From Armatimonadota bacterium (GTDB taxonomy: Bacteria; Armatimonadota; Fimbriimonadia; Fimbriimonadales; Fimbriimonadaceae): DNA of 64,000 bases. How positions within the stretch are numbered: the stretch's first letter is position 1; each line of letters begins with the position of its first letter. Shown piece by piece: positions 3,127 through 9,551 of this stretch. Where the stretch lies: assembly GCA_018268395.1 (NCBI GenBank), contig JAFDWQ010000009.1, positions 124,001 through 188,000 on the forward strand, in the 5' to 3' direction. Below the pieces are notes generated by a model. It did no database searches. It was not told the DNA's origin and saw nothing but the letters and a program-made list of their open reading frames with translations. Position numbers and translations under genes: made by a program.

Positions 3127-4395
3127 ATGCTCTCGCGCCGAAAGTTCCTCGCGACGGCGGCCACCGTCGCCTTCGCAGACCACGCCCTCGCCGTCGTCGA
3201 ACGGGCTTCGGAACGGACTTCGGTCGGCGCGGGTACTGCTCAGGACGAGGAGTTCTGGGCCCAGATCCAGCAGGCCTTCACGCTCGACCGCTCGATCGTA
3301 AACTTCAATAACGGCGGTGTCTGCCCGTCGCCGCGCGTCGTCCAGGACGCGATGCGCCGCCAACTGGAATACAGCAACCAGGCCCCCAGCTACACGATGT
3401 GGCGCCACCTCGAACCAGAAATCGAGCACGTCCGAAGACGGTTAGCCCGAACGTTCGGGTGCGACGCCGAAGAAGTCGCGATCACGAGGAACGCGAGCGA
3501 GGCCCTCGAAACGTGCCTCATGGGGTTCGACCTGGAGCCCGGAGACGAAGTCCTGACGACAGATCAGGACTACCCTCGGATGGTGACGACGATCCAAGCC
3601 CGTGAACGCCGCCACGGCATCAAGATGGTGCAGGTTCCTGTTCCCGCCGCGCCGAGGTCGAAGAAGGAAATCGTCGACGCCTTTACGTCCGGATTGACCC
3701 CGAAGACGAAGATGGTCCTCGTCAGCCAGGTCGTGTTCATGACGGGTCAGATCAATCCCGTCCACGACGTCGTCGAGCTGGGGCGGCGCCATGGCGTCCC
3801 GGTCATCGTCGACGGCGCCCATGCTTTTGCCCAGTATCCGTTCACCTGGAAAGAGCTGGGTTGCGACTATTACGGAACGTCGCTCCATAAGTGGCTGATG
3901 GCGCCGGTCGGAACGGGCATGCTCGCCGTCCGAAAGGACAAGATCGAGAAGCTCTGGCCCTTGATGGCAGCGGGCTCGACGCAGGACAAAGACGTCCGCA
4001 AGTTCGAAGAGATCGGGACGCACCCGGCCGCGAACCATAACGCCATCGCTGAAGCCCTGACGTTCCACGAGATGATCGGTGCCGGACGCAAGGCGGACCG
4101 GCTCCGCTATCTTCGCAGCCGATGGACCGACGTCCTCCGGGAGGAGAAGAACGTCGTCTTCCACACGAACCTCGATCCTCAGTTCTCGTGCGGCCTGACG
4201 ACCGTCCAGATCAAAGGCGTCCCGCCTGGCGACCTTGCGGCATGGCTGCTCGAAAAGAAAGGGATCTTTGTGACAGGCATCGGCCATCCCTCCTTCGAAG
4301 GCATCCGTGTGACGCCCAACGTCTACACGACTCTGGACGAGATCGACCGGTTCCGAGAAGCGATGCTCGAGGCCGCCCGCCAAGGGATCGCGTGA
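3127..4395 (+). CDS. Tat-exported class V PLP aminotransferase (isopenicillin-N-epimerase-like)
   Basis: PLP-dependent fold-type I enzyme of aminotransferase class V. The N-terminus MLSRRKFLATAATVAFADHALA is a twin-arginine signal, so the folded, cofactor-loaded enzyme should be exported by Tat; a tatC lies in this window. Catalytic features are VDGAHAFAQ (PLP Asp and His) and the Schiff-base lysine at about residue 255 in TSLHKWLMAP. The family includes isopenicillin N epimerases, cysteine desulfurases and kynureninases; the closest pattern is the epimerase-like group, but the substrate cannot be told. The protein is about 422 aa from the chosen start. Confidence 0.85.
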   Translation: MLSRRKFLATAATVAFADHALAVVERASERTSVGAGTAQDEEFWAQIQQAFTLDRSIVNFNNGGVCPSPRVVQDAMRRQLEYSNQAPSYTMWRHLEPEIEHVRRRLARTFGCDAEEVAITRNASEALETCLMGFDLEPGDEVLTTDQDYPRMVTTIQARERRHGIKMVQVPVPAAPRSKKEIVDAFTSGLTPKTKMVLVSQVVFMTGQINPVHDVVELGRRHGVPVIVDGAHAFAQYPFTWKELGCDYYGTSLHKWLMAPVGTGMLAVRKDKIEKLWPLMAAGSTQDKDVRKFEEIGTHPAANHNAIAEALTFHEMIGAGRKADRLRYLRSRWTDVLREEKNVVFHTNLDPQFSCGLTTVQIKGVPPGDLAAWLLEKKGIFVTGIGHPSFEGIRVTPNVYTTLDEIDRFREAMLEAARQGIA

Positions 4396-4501
4396 AGCCC
4401 GTCAACTAAGGCAAGGCAAGGAAGGGGAGGCGAGAGTTCCAGGGGGCTCCGCTGCCGACCGGGCCCAAGAGGACTGTCCGGAACGGGGAGCGAGGAACGG
4501 G

Positions 4502-4507
4502 TATGAT
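4502..4507 (+). promoter_or_regulatory. Probable -10 box for the arginine operon leader
   Basis: TATGAT lies 10 nt before the ATG of the leader ORF at 4518. An in-frame ATG at 4503 falls inside this box, so the ATG at 4518 is the better start. No convincing -35 is seen. Confidence 0.4.
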
Positions 4508-4517
4508 CGCGGCCTGC

Positions 4518-4619
4518 ATGACCGGCATCGGCCAGAACCCGTTCGAGGTTCAGCTTGGAAACGTCAACTTCCAGGCCGCCGCTGTCACGTCCGTCCGACG
4601 AGGCCGACGACGAATCTAG
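4518..4619 (+). CDS. Candidate arginine leader peptide of the arg operon
   Basis: A 33-codon ORF beginning MTGIGQNPFEV and ending VTSVRRGRRRI then TAG. Five of the six codons at 4596-4613 are arginine, all CGA (CGA CGA GGC CGA CGA CGA). The stop at 4617-4619 shares its last base with a 10-bp inverted repeat that precedes argF. An arginine-rich short ORF directly upstream of an arginine biosynthesis operon is the arrangement used by attenuation leaders, where ribosome stalling on the cognate codons changes folding downstream. This role is inferred from position and codon content. No U-tract follows the hairpin, so classical intrinsic termination is not evident. Confidence 0.45.
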   Translation: MTGIGQNPFEVQLGNVNFQAAAVTSVRRGRRRI

Positions 4620-4683
4620 GGGATTTGCCCTAGGACGCACCCGACCGGACGACGACGTTCCCGACAGGTACCCGCAAATCCCC
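4619..4683 (+). promoter_or_regulatory. Inverted repeat between the Arg-rich leader ORF and argF
   Basis: GGGGATTTGC (4619-4628) and GCAAATCCCC (4674-4683) form a perfect 10-bp stem enclosing about 45 nt. It begins at the leader stop codon, so a ribosome stalled on the CGA run would cover or approach the left arm. It ends 62 bp before the argF start. Without a U-tract it may act through Rho or on argF translation. Confidence 0.4.
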
Positions 4684-4745
4684 CAGAAGCGACCTACCGC
4701 TGACTTTGCCCACCGCCGGGCACCGGACGATTCCTGTCGAACACC

Positions 4746-5726
4746 ATGGTCAAACCCGACTATGCGGCGGTCACCGCCGTTCATCAAAAGCCGCTCTTCG
4801 ACGCGCCCCAGCATGCCGTCAAACCCAAACACGTCCTCTCGTCGACCGATCTGACGGCCGACGAAATCCGCCTCGTCCTGGATACCGCCAAGCTTCAAAA
4901 GGCTCTCCGCTCCAAGGGAGGCGCGACCATCGAGCCTGTCGAGAACAGGCTGCTCGCGATGATCTTCGAGAAGCAGTCGCTTCGCACAAGGGTCTCGTTC
5001 GAAACCGCCGCTTTCGAGCTCGGGGGCCACGGTGTCTATCTGACGAAGAACGACATCGAAATGGGCAAGCGTGAGTCGATCGCCGACACCGCCCGTGTCC
5101 TCTCGAACTGGTGCTCGATGATCGTCGCCCGCCTCTATAAGCAGGAAGACATCGAAGAACTGGCCGCCTGGTCGTCCGTACCCGTGATCAACGCGCTGAC
5201 CGACGCCGAGCACCCCTGCCAGGCCCTCGCCGACTTGCTGACCTTAGAAGAAGTCTTTGGAAGCCAGAAGCTCAAGCTCGTGTGGATCGGAGACGGGAAC
5301 AACGTCGCGAACAGCTTTGCCGTCACCGCTGCCCGACTCGGACACGATGTCGTGGTCTGCACTCCCGCGGGCTACGAGGCCACCGACCACGTTTACGGCT
5401 TCCCGAACGTGACGGCCAGCTACAGCCCGGCAGAAGCCGTCGTCGGAGCACACGCCGTCATCACCGACGTGTGGGTGAGCATGGGACAAGAGGAAGAGAC
5501 CGAGACCCGCATGCGGAGGTTCGCGAAGTTCCAGGTCAACGAAGAGCTCCTAGGTTTGGCGGACCCGTCCGCCGTGTTCCTCCACTGCCTTCCCGCCGTC
5601 CGCGGCCTAGAGGTCACCGACGGTGTCATCGACGGTGACCGATCGGTCGTGTTCCAGCAATCGGACAACCGCCTCCACGCCCAAAAGGCCCTCATGAGCC
5701 TTATCTTCGACGGGGTGCTCGCGTGA
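4746..5726 (+). CDS. argF: Ornithine carbamoyltransferase
   Basis: Transfers the carbamoyl group of carbamoyl phosphate to ornithine, giving citrulline. Visible motifs are the carbamoyl-phosphate loop FEKQSLRTRVSFE, HPCQALADL, the ornithine-side DVWVSMGQEEE loop and the catalytic HCLPA near the C-terminus. At 326 aa it has slightly more than typical length because of an N-terminal extension of about 28 residues before VLSSTDLT; a later start is possible, but no nearby alternative has a better signal. It is the first gene of argF-argG-argH-rocD, and the next gene starts in a GTGA overlap. Confidence 0.93.
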   Translation: MVKPDYAAVTAVHQKPLFDAPQHAVKPKHVLSSTDLTADEIRLVLDTAKLQKALRSKGGATIEPVENRLLAMIFEKQSLRTRVSFETAAFELGGHGVYLTKNDIEMGKRESIADTARVLSNWCSMIVARLYKQEDIEELAAWSSVPVINALTDAEHPCQALADLLTLEEVFGSQKLKLVWIGDGNNVANSFAVTAARLGHDVVVCTPAGYEATDHVYGFPNVTASYSPAEAVVGAHAVITDVWVSMGQEEETETRMRRFAKFQVNEELLGLADPSAVFLHCLPAVRGLEVTDGVIDGDRSVVFQQSDNRLHAQKALMSLIFDGVLA

Positions 5727-6907
5727 AGAAGGCGCTCGTCGTCTATAGTGGCGGCCTCGATACGACCGTCTGTGTCCCGGTCCTCCTGAGCGAGGGGTTC
5801 AGTGACGTCCACACCGTCACCGTCGACGTCGGCCAACCCGCCGAGGACATCGCGCAAGCCGGCGCACGTGCCGCGCAACTCGGAACGACCCACACGGTCG
5901 TCGACGTCAAGAAGGAGTTCGCCGAGGTCTACTGCATGACCGCCGTGGCCATGAACGCGGACTACTTCGGCTACCCGCTGTCGACCGCCATCGCCCGGCC
6001 CCTGATCGCGAAAAAGGCGGCCGAGACCGCGGTCGAATGCGGCCCCTTCGACGCCATCGTCCATGGCTGCACGGGCAAGGGCAACGACCAGTTCCGGATC
6101 GAATTCGGACTCCGCTTGCACGTGCCCCACATCCCGATCAAAGCGCCCGTACGCGAACGCAACTGGACCCGGTCGGAAGAGATCGAATACGCAGAGCAGG
6201 TCGGCGCTCCGATCGGTCAGTCCAAGGACAAGATCTGGAGCATCGACGAGAACCTCTGGGGGCGCTCGATCGAAGGCGGCCTGCTCGAAGACCCGGACAC
6301 GGCGCCGCCCGAGGAGATCTTCCAGTGGACGTCGTCGTTCGACGTGGCCCCCAACGAGCCTCAGACCGTCGAAATCTCCTTCCAACACGGTGTTCCCGTC
6401 GCGATCGACGGCTTGGAACTCAGCCCGCTCGAGATCGTCCAGTTCGCCAACCGGTTGGCGGGCCATCACGGCGTCGGCCGGATCGACATGATGGAAGACC
6501 GCATGATCGGCATGAAAGTCCGCGAGAACTACGAATGCCCCGGCGCCGCCCTGCTCATCCGCGCCCACAAAGAACTGGAGGGCCATATCTCGACGGGCGC
6601 CGAGCGGAAGTTCAAGGCGATGGTCGACCAGCAGTGGGCCGAGCTCGCCTATTGCGGACTTTGGGGCGACCCGTTGTTCGAGGACCTCGTCGCGTTCTCG
6701 CAGAGCGTCCAGAAGCGGGTCAGCGGCTCGGTCAAGGTCAAGCTGTTCAAAGGCGGCATGACCGTGGTCGGAAGGCAGAGCCCGTACGGGCTCTACAACG
6801 AGGCCGTCGCCAGCTTCGATGACGCGACGTTCTCCCAATCGGCCATGGAAGGGATGGTCAAGGCGCACGGACTGTCCAGCCTGATGCACGCGAGGCTCCT
6901 CACATGA
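5723..6907 (+). CDS. argG: Argininosuccinate synthase
   Basis: Joins citrulline and aspartate with ATP cleavage to AMP and PPi. The N-terminus carries the N-type ATP-pyrophosphatase P-loop YSGGLDTTV (residues 8-16), followed by the family segments GCTGKGNDQFRIEFG and PVRERNWTRSEEIEYA. At 394 aa it has full length. The GTG start overlaps the argF stop (GTGA) and the end overlaps argH by 4 bp (ATGA), so translation is very likely coupled. Confidence 0.95.
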   Translation: MKKALVVYSGGLDTTVCVPVLLSEGFSDVHTVTVDVGQPAEDIAQAGARAAQLGTTHTVVDVKKEFAEVYCMTAVAMNADYFGYPLSTAIARPLIAKKAAETAVECGPFDAIVHGCTGKGNDQFRIEFGLRLHVPHIPIKAPVRERNWTRSEEIEYAEQVGAPIGQSKDKIWSIDENLWGRSIEGGLLEDPDTAPPEEIFQWTSSFDVAPNEPQTVEISFQHGVPVAIDGLELSPLEIVQFANRLAGHHGVGRIDMMEDRMIGMKVRENYECPGAALLIRAHKELEGHISTGAERKFKAMVDQQWAELAYCGLWGDPLFEDLVAFSQSVQKRVSGSVKVKLFKGGMTVVGRQSPYGLYNEAVASFDDATFSQSAMEGMVKAHGLSSLMHARLLT

Positions 6908-8301
6908 GCCGCCCCAAGTTGTGGGGCGGAGCCTTCGACACCGCCCCAGACGACTTGGCCTGGTCGTTCGGCCAGAGCCTCGCGACCGACGTGACCTTGT
7001 TCGAGGAGGAGTTCGAGGTTTCGCTCGCCCACGCCGCCATGCTGGCCGAGTGCGGGATCGTCTCCGATGCCGAAGGGCAGACGCTCGTCGGCGGCCTCAA
7101 CACCGTGCGCGCCAGCGTCCTCTCGGGAACGATCACGCTTCCGAAAGGAGCGGAGGACCTGCACGGGGCCGTGGAAGCCCTGCTCGAAGAAGCCGTCGGT
7201 GAGACCGCTAAGCGCCTTCACGCAGGACGGAGCCGCAACGACCAGATCGTCACGATGACCAAGCTCTGGCTCCGGAAACGCTGCCACGAAACCGTCGCCT
7301 CGATCCATGAGGCACAGGGAACGCTCCTCCGCCTGGCGAAGCGCCACCGCTCGGCACTGATGCCCGGCTACACCCACCAACAGCCGGCCCAGCCCGTGAC
7401 GTTGGGATACCTTCTCCTAGCGTACTTCTGGATGCTTCAAAGGGACAAAGTGCGGTTCCTCGCCCTTCAAGACAGTCTCGGACTGTGTCCGATGGGGTCG
7501 TCGGCGCTAGCGGGCACGTCCCTTCCGATCGACCGGACCTCCGTGGCCCTTGAACTCGGTTTCGCCGGGCCCACGCCCAACGCCCTGGACTCGGTCAGCG
7601 ACCGTGACTTTGTCGGCGACGCCCTCCATGCGTGCGCGACGTTGATGCAGCACCTCTCGCGCATCTGTCAGGAGATCGTCCTGTTCTCGACCGCCGAGTT
7701 CGGGTTCTTAACGCTCGACGACGCGTTCTCGACGGGCAGCAGCATCATGCCTCAAAAGCGAAATCCGGACTTTGCGGAGTTGGTCCGGGGAAGGACGGGG
7801 CGCGTGATCGGGCACTGGACGGCGTTCATGTGCACGATGAAGGCATTGCCCTTGGGTTACAACCGGGACCAACAGGAGGACAAGCCGCCCCTCTTCGATG
7901 CGGTCAAGACGAGCCTGGACTCGTTGGAACTGACGGCGTCCATGCTCAAGACGGCGGACTTCCATACCGACCGCATGGCGGAAGCCGCGGAAAACGGCCA
8001 CCCGTCCGCCACGCTCGTGGCCGAACGGCTCGTCGCGCTAGGCGTCCCCTTCCGGGAGGCCCACGAGACGGTCGGAGGATGGGTCAAGTCGTGCCGGGCC
8101 TCCGGTCGAGCGATCACCGCCGACTCGAAAGGCGTCGATCCCCGACTGGCAGAAGCCTTGTCCGGCGTGTCCACCGTTGCGGCCGTCGATTCCCGGGACA
8201 GCCACGGAGGGACGTCTCCTCAGGCCATCGACGAACAGTTCTCCGCCGCACAAGCGGCCCTTGACCTTCACCACTTGGTGTCCGAACCGAACAGACCATG
8301 A
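6904..8301 (+). CDS. argH: Argininosuccinate lyase
   Basis: Splits argininosuccinate into arginine and fumarate; member of the fumarase/aspartase superfamily. It begins KLWGGAFDTAPDD, carries the HAGRSRNDQ substrate segment, the catalytic-His region GYTHQQPAQP and the superfamily signature GSSIMPQKRNPD (about residue 280). At 465 aa it has full length. Both ends overlap its neighbours by 4 bp (ATGA), fixing it in the operon. Confidence 0.95.
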   Translation: MSRPKLWGGAFDTAPDDLAWSFGQSLATDVTLFEEEFEVSLAHAAMLAECGIVSDAEGQTLVGGLNTVRASVLSGTITLPKGAEDLHGAVEALLEEAVGETAKRLHAGRSRNDQIVTMTKLWLRKRCHETVASIHEAQGTLLRLAKRHRSALMPGYTHQQPAQPVTLGYLLLAYFWMLQRDKVRFLALQDSLGLCPMGSSALAGTSLPIDRTSVALELGFAGPTPNALDSVSDRDFVGDALHACATLMQHLSRICQEIVLFSTAEFGFLTLDDAFSTGSSIMPQKRNPDFAELVRGRTGRVIGHWTAFMCTMKALPLGYNRDQQEDKPPLFDAVKTSLDSLELTASMLKTADFHTDRMAEAAENGHPSATLVAERLVALGVPFREAHETVGGWVKSCRASGRAITADSKGVDPRLAEALSGVSTVAAVDSRDSHGGTSPQAIDEQFSAAQAALDLHHLVSEPNRP

Positions 8302-9551
8302 ACGAGATTTTTGAAGCCATCGACGCTCTGACCTGCCAAGAGGCCATGGACTTGACCCATGACTACGGCGCGCACAACTACCATCCGCTCCCTGTGAACA
8401 TCGTCCGCGCTAAAGGCGCATTGGCTTGGGACGGGGCTGGGAACGAGTACTACGACTGCATCGGCTCTTACTCGGCGGTAGCGAACGGTCACCTCAGCGA
8501 CGCCGTCGTCGGGGCCCTGAAACGGCAACTGGACAAAGTGACCCTCACGAGCCGCGCGGTCTATACGAGCGAGATGGCGCTGTTCCTCAAGCAACTTTGC
8601 GACTTCACAGGCATGGAAGCGGCCTGTCCGATGAACACGGGCGCTGAAGCGGTCGAAACCGCGATCAAGATCGCCCGGAAATGGGCGTACACGGTCAAAG
8701 GCGTCCCAGTCGGGCAAGCGGAGATCGTCACCGCCGAAGGCAACTTCCACGGACGCACGACGACCATCGTGTCCTTCTCGACCGAACCCCAGTACAAAGA
8801 CCACTTCGGCCCGTTGACCCCCGGATTCTTGACCGTCCCGTTCGGTGACGTCGAAGCCCTCGAGGCGGCGATCACGCCGAACACCGCCGCCGTCCTGTTG
8901 GAGCCCGTCCAAGCCGAAGGCGGCATCGTGTTCCCGCCCGAGGGGTTCCTTGCCCAAGTCCGCCGAACCTGCACCGAGAACAACGTCCTCTTGATCTGGG
9001 ACGAGATCCAGACGGGCTTCTGCAGGACGGGCGAACGCTTCGCCTGGCAGCACGAAGACGCCAAACCCGACATGATGTGCCTGGGCAAAGCTCTGGGCGG
9101 AGGGTTGATGCCGGTGTCGGCCGTCGTCGGTTCCCGTGATGCGCTTGGAGTCTTCGTGCCCGGTGACCACGGCTCGACGTTCGGCGGTAATCCGCTCGCT
9201 TCGGTCGTCGCCATGGCCGCCATGAAAGAGATGACCGACCTCGGCCTGTCGGCACGGTCCGCCGCCCTCGGCGCTCGGATGGCCACGGCCCTCTCGGAGC
9301 TCGGCGCGGACGTCGTCGAAGACGTCCGGGGCCAGGGCCTCCTCGTCGGGCTCGAAGTCAAGGAAGGCGTGGACACGGAGGCCCTGACGAAAGCGTTCCT
9401 TGCGAACGGCGTCCTGACCAAGGAGACCCGTGCCCGAACGTTCCGCTTCGCCCCTCCCCTCACCTTGACCGAGGACGAGCTCGACGACATCGTCGCCCGC
9501 ATCGGCAAGGCGTTGGGGACCGTCGCAGGTACCGTGACCCTCGCGGTCTGA
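8298..9551 (+). CDS. rocD: Ornithine delta-aminotransferase
   Basis: PLP enzyme that interconverts ornithine and glutamate-5-semialdehyde. It reads like ornithine-oxo-acid aminotransferase rather than acetylornithine aminotransferase: YGAHNYHPLPV near the N-terminus, YSAVANGH, MNTGAEAVETAIKIARKW, NFHGRTTTIVSFS, WDEIQTGFCRTG and the PLP lysine in LGKALGGGLMPVSAVV. At 417 aa it has normal length. It is the last gene of the arginine operon, starting in an ATGA overlap with argH. RocD usually degrades ornithine; here it sits with the three enzymes that turn ornithine into arginine, so it may supply ornithine from the proline/glutamate side or balance the two pools. Confidence 0.88.
   Translation: MNEIFEAIDALTCQEAMDLTHDYGAHNYHPLPVNIVRAKGALAWDGAGNEYYDCIGSYSAVANGHLSDAVVGALKRQLDKVTLTSRAVYTSEMALFLKQLCDFTGMEAACPMNTGAEAVETAIKIARKWAYTVKGVPVGQAEIVTAEGNFHGRTTTIVSFSTEPQYKDHFGPLTPGFLTVPFGDVEALEAAITPNTAAVLLEPVQAEGGIVFPPEGFLAQVRRTCTENNVLLIWDEIQTGFCRTGERFAWQHEDAKPDMMCLGKALGGGLMPVSAVVGSRDALGVFVPGDHGSTFGGNPLASVVAMAAMKEMTDLGLSARSAALGARMATALSELGADVVEDVRGQGLLVGLEVKEGVDTEALTKAFLANGVLTKETRARTFRFAPPLTLTEDELDDIVARIGKALGTVAGTVTLAV

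Follow-up and report, generated by a model that had tools for sequence, protein, structure and literature searches.

In well-studied bacteria, the synthesis of arginine is the classic example of control by the ArgR repressor. The attenuators with leader peptides that are known to us for biosynthetic operons concern amino acids other than arginine. In fungi, the arginine attenuator peptide, encoded upstream of an arginine biosynthetic gene, acts through arginine-induced arrest of a specific nascent peptide. Canestrari et al. are said to have described, in 2020, leaderless polycysteine sORFs of mycobacteria that serve as attenuators upstream of a biosynthetic operon; we know of no conserved covarying stem in these. 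By analogy, the closest architecture to that described here is the LEU element found upstream of leuA in Actinobacteria, the base stem of which is formed by a run of leucine codons paired with the leuA Shine-Dalgarno box, and in which codon mutations are cited as being without effect on regulation (PMC1262725). The closest arginine case, again by analogy, is Salmonella orf34-speF, in which three elements act jointly: Arg codons, a leader segment that pairs with the ribosome binding site (RBS), and a hairpin past the stop codon (PMC6386406). In Staphylococcus aureus, rbfL senses arginine limitation and represses a biofilm regulator (PMC13009471). A search of the literature outside most subscription journals returned no Arg-codon leader in front of an operon for arginine biosynthesis in bacteria and, with the same coverage, no leader peptide described in Armatimonadota. 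Here we describe a candidate for both.

The stretch analysed (hereafter the window) comprises 64,000 nucleotides from an Armatimonadota bacterium. Its forward strand carries argF (ornithine carbamoyltransferase, OTC; 4746–5726), argG (argininosuccinate synthase; 5723–6907), argH (argininosuccinate lyase; 6904–8301) and, as the last gene of the operon, rocD (ornithine aminotransferase; 8298–9551), in this order; each of the four proteins exceeds the curated threshold of its NCBIfam model (TIGR00658 for argF, TIGR01885 for rocD). The gene 5′ of argF (3127–4395) encodes a class-V aminotransferase that seems to carry an N-terminal signal sequence; it is closest to PvdN-like periplasmic enzymes, with a score below the cut-off. 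The argF of leader-bearing type has an N-terminal extension of ~20–27 residues ahead of the usual OTC start (4746–4826 in the window), with a QKPLF/QQPLF motif that is partly conserved in several relatives. In other members of the window's family (L011, L013, L017–L020, L030, L031 and others) the argF match lies inside a single open frame of 700–750 aa that starts with an aminotransferase-like part, suggesting an argD-argF fusion. The carA of the window genome (L098, G000:C2:12523-13611) is also long, an open frame of 760 aa that is about twice the usual length and may be fused to another gene.

A search with the window's argF against 60 relatives, retaining argF genes at least 58% identical, gave nine genomes with the window counted: G000, G001, G025 and G034 from the window's own family (f1), and G040, G044, G046, G048 and G050 from a second family (f5) of the same order, Fimbriimonadales. 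Upstream of argF in all nine genomes, which represent eight genera but only nine, mutually related, sequences, lies the same device, composed of a −10 box, a short ORF, an Arg cluster, a TAG stop codon and a stem. An earlier reading of the window made from sequence only had suggested that related genomes be compared for a conserved short ORF with clustered Arg codons and a compensating stem; that comparison finds the ORF and the Arg cluster in 9/9 loci together with a covarying stem, all downstream of a conserved −10 box, and so confirms the observation as real and conserved. argG follows argF in eight of the nine loci. In G034, argF is separate from argG and argH; the leader is retained upstream of argF, and no leader lies upstream of the argG located elsewhere in that genome. 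That arginine-biosynthetic genes follow the leader, and that it is kept upstream of argF even where this gene is on its own, both speak for an arginine leader.

In the window, the leader ORF (MTGIGQNPFEVQLGNVNFQAAAVTSVRRGRRRI) consists of 33 codons on the forward strand (4518–4619), from an ATG at 4518 to a TAG at 4617–4619, and is preceded by a −10 box, TATGAT, at 4502–4507, with no recognisable −35 element. The sequence-only reading had reported this frame, the TATGAT box, the VTSVRRGRRRI ending of the peptide, a perfect 10-bp inverted repeat (4619–4628 with 4674–4683) and argF downstream, and each of these is where it had been placed. Frame, length, start position and stop are kept across the nine loci: the ORFs are 30–33 codons long, begin with ATG or GTG and all end with TAG, whilst the N-terminal parts of the peptides are divergent, with no visible conservation. 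A −10-like hexamer lies 7–14 nt 5′ of the start codon in every locus; a −35-like hexamer, at a 17-nt spacing, accompanies it in L005, L006 and L009. The promoter position would leave a 5′ untranslated region of ~0–8 nt, and the leader would therefore be nearly leaderless. An in-frame ATG at 4503 would lengthen the window leader to 38 codons; it falls within the −10 box, however, and could not begin a message driven by that box, which leaves 4518 as the plausible start.

The window leader ends in VRRGRRRI, encoded by GTC CGA CGA GGC CGA CGA CGA ATC TAG, within which the candidate control codons CGA CGA GGC CGA CGA CGA occupy 4596–4613 and a single Ile codon separates the Arg run from the stop. 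The other eight leaders end in FRRGRRRI (L003), VRRLRRRA (L004), RRVRRVRA (L005), TRVRRGRS (L006), RRDSRRRA (L007), TRVRRGRA (L008), RLRRRARV (L009) and ARVRRGRS (L010). All nine thus have between four and six Arg among their last eight codons, and the register is conserved: counted from the stop, codons −2 and −4 specify Arg in all nine loci, and codon −7 does so in eight. The 47 Arg codons in the last ten positions of the nine leaders comprise 32 CGA, 11 CGT, three CGC and one CGG, with no AGA or AGG; CGA and CGT together account for 43 of the 47, compared with 28% of Arg codons in the window's long ORFs, a contrast that is large, although its chi-square p-value is not to be taken literally because the loci are related. 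Arg codons in the remainder of the same leaders are mostly CGC. Attenuation leaders are known to have biased codon choice, which has been attributed to selective isoacceptor charging (PMC1183508). In L004 and L007 the cluster has CGT in place of CGA, so that it is arginine, not a CGA string, that is conserved. The earlier suggestion that a tRNA reading CGA acts as the sensor is accordingly rejected in its absolute form, although the cluster is strongly biased towards CGA and CGT.

The inverted repeat forms the arms of a conserved 10-bp stem (stem 2), which starts at the stop codon; in the window the 5′ arm GGGGATTTGC (4619–4628, forward strand) and the 3′ arm GCAAATCCCC (4674–4683, forward strand) pair perfectly. 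Among the relatives, the arms vary as GGGGATTCGC/GCGAATCCCC, GGGGATTAGC/GCTAATCCCC and GGGGTTTCGC/GCGAAACCCC, and in one case with a 2-nt bulge, as GGGGCCTCGC/GCGAG(UC)GCCCC. In the nine-locus alignment 98.9% of cells in stem 2 are paired with the bulge removed, and 96.7% with the bulge left in, compared with 17–58% in controls slid along the alignment. Double-sided compensatory changes occur at three pairs, the covariation score is reached by 0/500 shuffles, and RNAalifold, unprompted, proposes exactly this stem. The check by comparison and structure prediction proposed for the stem has thus returned a covarying stem in the homologous argF upstream regions. The inter-arm distance, the loop length and the loop sequence vary between loci, and the stem-proximal TAGGGGATTNGCC is conserved beyond the need of a plain stem.

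A second structure, absent from the earlier reading, can be drawn over the stop codon. In this hairpin 1, TAGGG (4617–4621) pairs with CCCTA (4628–4632), extending in the window to CTAGGG (4616–4621) with CCCTAG (4628–4633); it occupies 4616–4633 on the forward strand, overlaps and excludes stem 2, and is only a possible structure. It is formable in most loci, with 87% of cells paired, and is weaker than stem 2; over the nine loci its covariation is not above that of shuffles. Double use of the segment, in hairpin 1 and in stem 2, would account for the strong retention of TAGGGGATTNGCC. A third, small GC hairpin before argF is visible by eye in most loci; GC hairpins of 4–5 bp are frequent by chance in such sequence.

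The distribution of the element is narrow. A covariance model finds it once per genome in the nine and in 0/104 other genomes of the order, under strict filters that may lose weak matches. When 291 genomes of the phylum were searched, eight contained the exact pattern; the remaining leader-bearing genome differs in the stem. Across GTDB species genomes there are 28 pattern matches, six of which are in Armatimonadota, all with the Arg peptide; the 22 outside the phylum have no comparable frame-long Arg-cluster peptide, and their number fits the chance expectation. The genome of Geomesophilobacter sediminis contains two TAGGGGATTTGCC...GGCAAATCCCC inverted repeats (L052 and L055) that resemble each other and whose upstream flanks are related; they are probably a dispersed repeat unconnected with arg genes. 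More distant argF genes (family f2 and L025) have no convincing analogous Arg-rich short ORF upstream.

We interpret the conserved element as a ribosome-sensing, attenuator-like arginine leader of the argF-argG-argH(-rocD) operon, a reading to which we assign a probability of roughly 80%. The layout is that of ribosome-mediated control: a single codon separates the Arg codons from the stop, where the stem begins. The peptide is almost certainly a functional leader peptide, arginine supply is very likely the signal, and sensing is probably of the charged-tRNA starvation type. The leading ribosome would slow on the Arg cluster if charged tRNA-Arg were scarce, whereas with ample arginine it would reach the TAG and depart. 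The ribosome's position would set the pairing around the stop codon, and hence argF expression, with starvation as the ON state. Less certainly, the Arg-codon segment, or the 3′ arm of the stem, would pair with the argF RBS, no intrinsic terminator being involved: a starved ribosome held on the Arg segment would free the RBS, and under sufficiency the segment would pair with it.

For the output of the leader, translation initiation of argF stands at even odds. In the predicted minimum-energy fold of the free leader, the Arg-codon segment pairs with the argF RBS in four of the five f5 leaders, in a helix nested outside the stem 2 region. The predicted pairings are GAGUUCGAC with GUCGAACUC in L005; CCGAGUCC with GGACUCGG in L008, where the full-length fold has hairpin 1 instead of stem 2; GACUCC and an ACGACGA segment with GGAGUC and UCGUCGU in L009; and GUUCGAC with GUCGAAC in L010. 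The pairing is weak or absent in the window, L003, L004, L006 and L007. The longest complementarity summed over the nine loci is 55, compared with 39.8 ± 2.8 in shuffles, 0/2000 of which reach 55, and is driven by the four f5 loci; in the window the longest match is 6 nt (p 0.14), with no clear pairing. RNAduplex z-scores for leader against RBS are uninformative because large loops are allowed. With a ribosome masked at the first Arg codons, as against at the stop, predicted RBS accessibility goes up in eight of the nine loci, several of the changes being negligible, whereas in the window it does not rise and moves in the opposite direction. When RBS regions were swapped among loci, this test gave permutation p-values of 0.03 and 0.05 for the two contrasts tried. 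As the RBS segments were picked after the folds had been inspected, the p-values are only of this size and the window is contrary, we take sequestration of the RBS by the Arg segment as suggestive for the f5 leaders.

The same leader peptide could instead have a transcriptional output, with termination in the stretch that separates the leader from argF, either dependent on Rho or based on pausing, and this we regard as a tentative second option. An intrinsic terminator is rejected as the output: the region 4300–4800 holds no U-tract, as the sequence-only reading had noted, and no consensus terminator, and most relatives lack a U-tract after stem 2, the only one being UUUU in L004. Since it has no intrinsic terminator, we do not class the leader as a classical attenuator. 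The missing U-tract, the presence of rho in all nine leader-bearing genomes and a spacer before argF with more C than G in most loci (40% versus 24% in the window) are consistent with Rho, as is the fact that the window and L003 have no clear Shine-Dalgarno sequence available for sequestration. The excess of C over G is, however, modest and is missing in L007 and L010, and the complementarity between Arg codons and RBS in the four f5 loci favours translation.

A different logic, in which free arginine would stall the ribosome at the Arg-rich C-terminus or the stop codon and high arginine would repress argF, as in the fungal arginine attenuator peptide, TnaC or SpeFL, appears unlikely. The presence of Arg at −2 and −4 in every leader, a fixed register to the stop codon, agrees with such arrest of the nascent peptide; so does the predicted ability of the 3′ stem arm to pair with the RBS in L005, L007 and L010 when the 5′ arm is masked, by which a ribosome held at the stop would repress. 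Arrest peptides generally require specific residues further up, however, whereas here conservation is lacking both in the amino acids that separate the Arg (G, V, L, D, S, A) and in the remainder of the peptide, and the strong codon bias of the cluster is better suited to an effect on decoding speed.

Much less probable still is a stem that serves as RNA for binding a protein or metabolite, or as a DNA operator, with the ORF being incidental. The conservation of TAGGGGATTNGCC beside the stem would fit a bound RNA; against it, the frame and register of the Arg cluster are kept in 9/9 loci through synonymous changes, the expected transcript has a start codon at its 5′ end in all nine, the loop varies in length and sequence, and an Rfam scan of 4300–4900 gave no match to a T-box or any other leader family up to E = 5. 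Against a DNA operator, which we reject, stand the location of the element within the expected transcript, the covariation of its arms and their variable spacing. A chance arrangement in a GC-rich intergenic region is refuted by the comparison: the window alone is a weak case and only mildly unusual, as 7/178 comparable short frames (~4%) have four or more Arg among their final eight codons and the hairpin z-score is only −2.5, but the device stands above chance through its conservation in nine of nine orthologous loci, across eight genera, every part in register and with compensatory changes.

The regulatory and metabolic setting is consistent with the arginine leader. ArgR (PF01316) is absent from all nine leader-bearing genomes and is found in 12 of 52 other relatives, which is consistent with replacement of the repressor by the leader, although statistically not strong. 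ArgJ is likewise absent from the nine, ArgC is above the cut-off in G025 only, and three of these genomes (G001, G025 and that of the window) have rocD in the arg operon. The simplest reading of this combination is that ornithine aminotransferase may serve as the anabolic source of ornithine. Should the proposed control be correct, arginine would join the amino acids with ribosome-controlled synthesis, in genomes that lack ArgR, and this logic would reach the phylum Armatimonadota. The leader would also offer a small, nearly leaderless system for separate tests of codon choice (CGA/CGT) and of RNA pairing.

Of the systems introduced above, the fungal arginine attenuator peptide is eukaryotic and is not Arg-rich at its end in a like manner. 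The mycobacterial sORFs share a leaderless short ORF with a codon run for the regulated amino acid, which in their case is cysteine. Attenuators of the his/trp type (e.g. PMC1183508) resemble the arginine leader in having control codons for the product amino acid before the stop, stems at the stop codon and biased codons, and clustered codons for the amino acid of the following pathway are found here in 9/9 loci with argF next; the arginine leader differs in having no intrinsic terminator or U-tract, in being nearly leaderless and in its amino acid. rbfL also senses arginine limitation through Arg codons of a short upstream ORF and acts on translation initiation, but through an 8-codon ORF that overlaps the RBS and uses AGA/AGG codons, with no RNA stem and with starvation repressing (PMC13009471).

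The LEU element likewise combines a leader ORF bearing a codon run for the amino acid of the next gene with a conserved inner RNA structure and no terminator; it concerns leucine and leuA instead of arginine and argF, has an inner pseudoknot and belongs to another phylum, and its pairing of codon run with RBS has a counterpart in only 4/9 arginine leaders, not clearly including the window's. orf34-speF shares an ORF of similar size (34 codons) with arginine-sensing Arg codons, a part of the ORF that pairs with the downstream RBS, a hairpin just past the stop and a fold decided by ribosome position (PMC6386406). It differs in controlling an ornithine decarboxylase, in its 5′ UTR of ~516 nt, in the position of its key Arg codons (12–13), in that ornithine also acts and in encoding an unrelated peptide (DUF2618); the HIRRT core of SpeFL, with Arg at 12–13, is absent from the nine leader peptides, the Arg cluster of which is C-terminal, before argF. 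Set against these systems, the locus could tentatively be read as the first arginine-sensing leader peptide on a bacterial arginine biosynthetic operon, a terminator-free one that substitutes for ArgR and in at least some members of which the Arg codons themselves act as the anti-Shine-Dalgarno sequence of argF, held by the covarying stop-codon stem.
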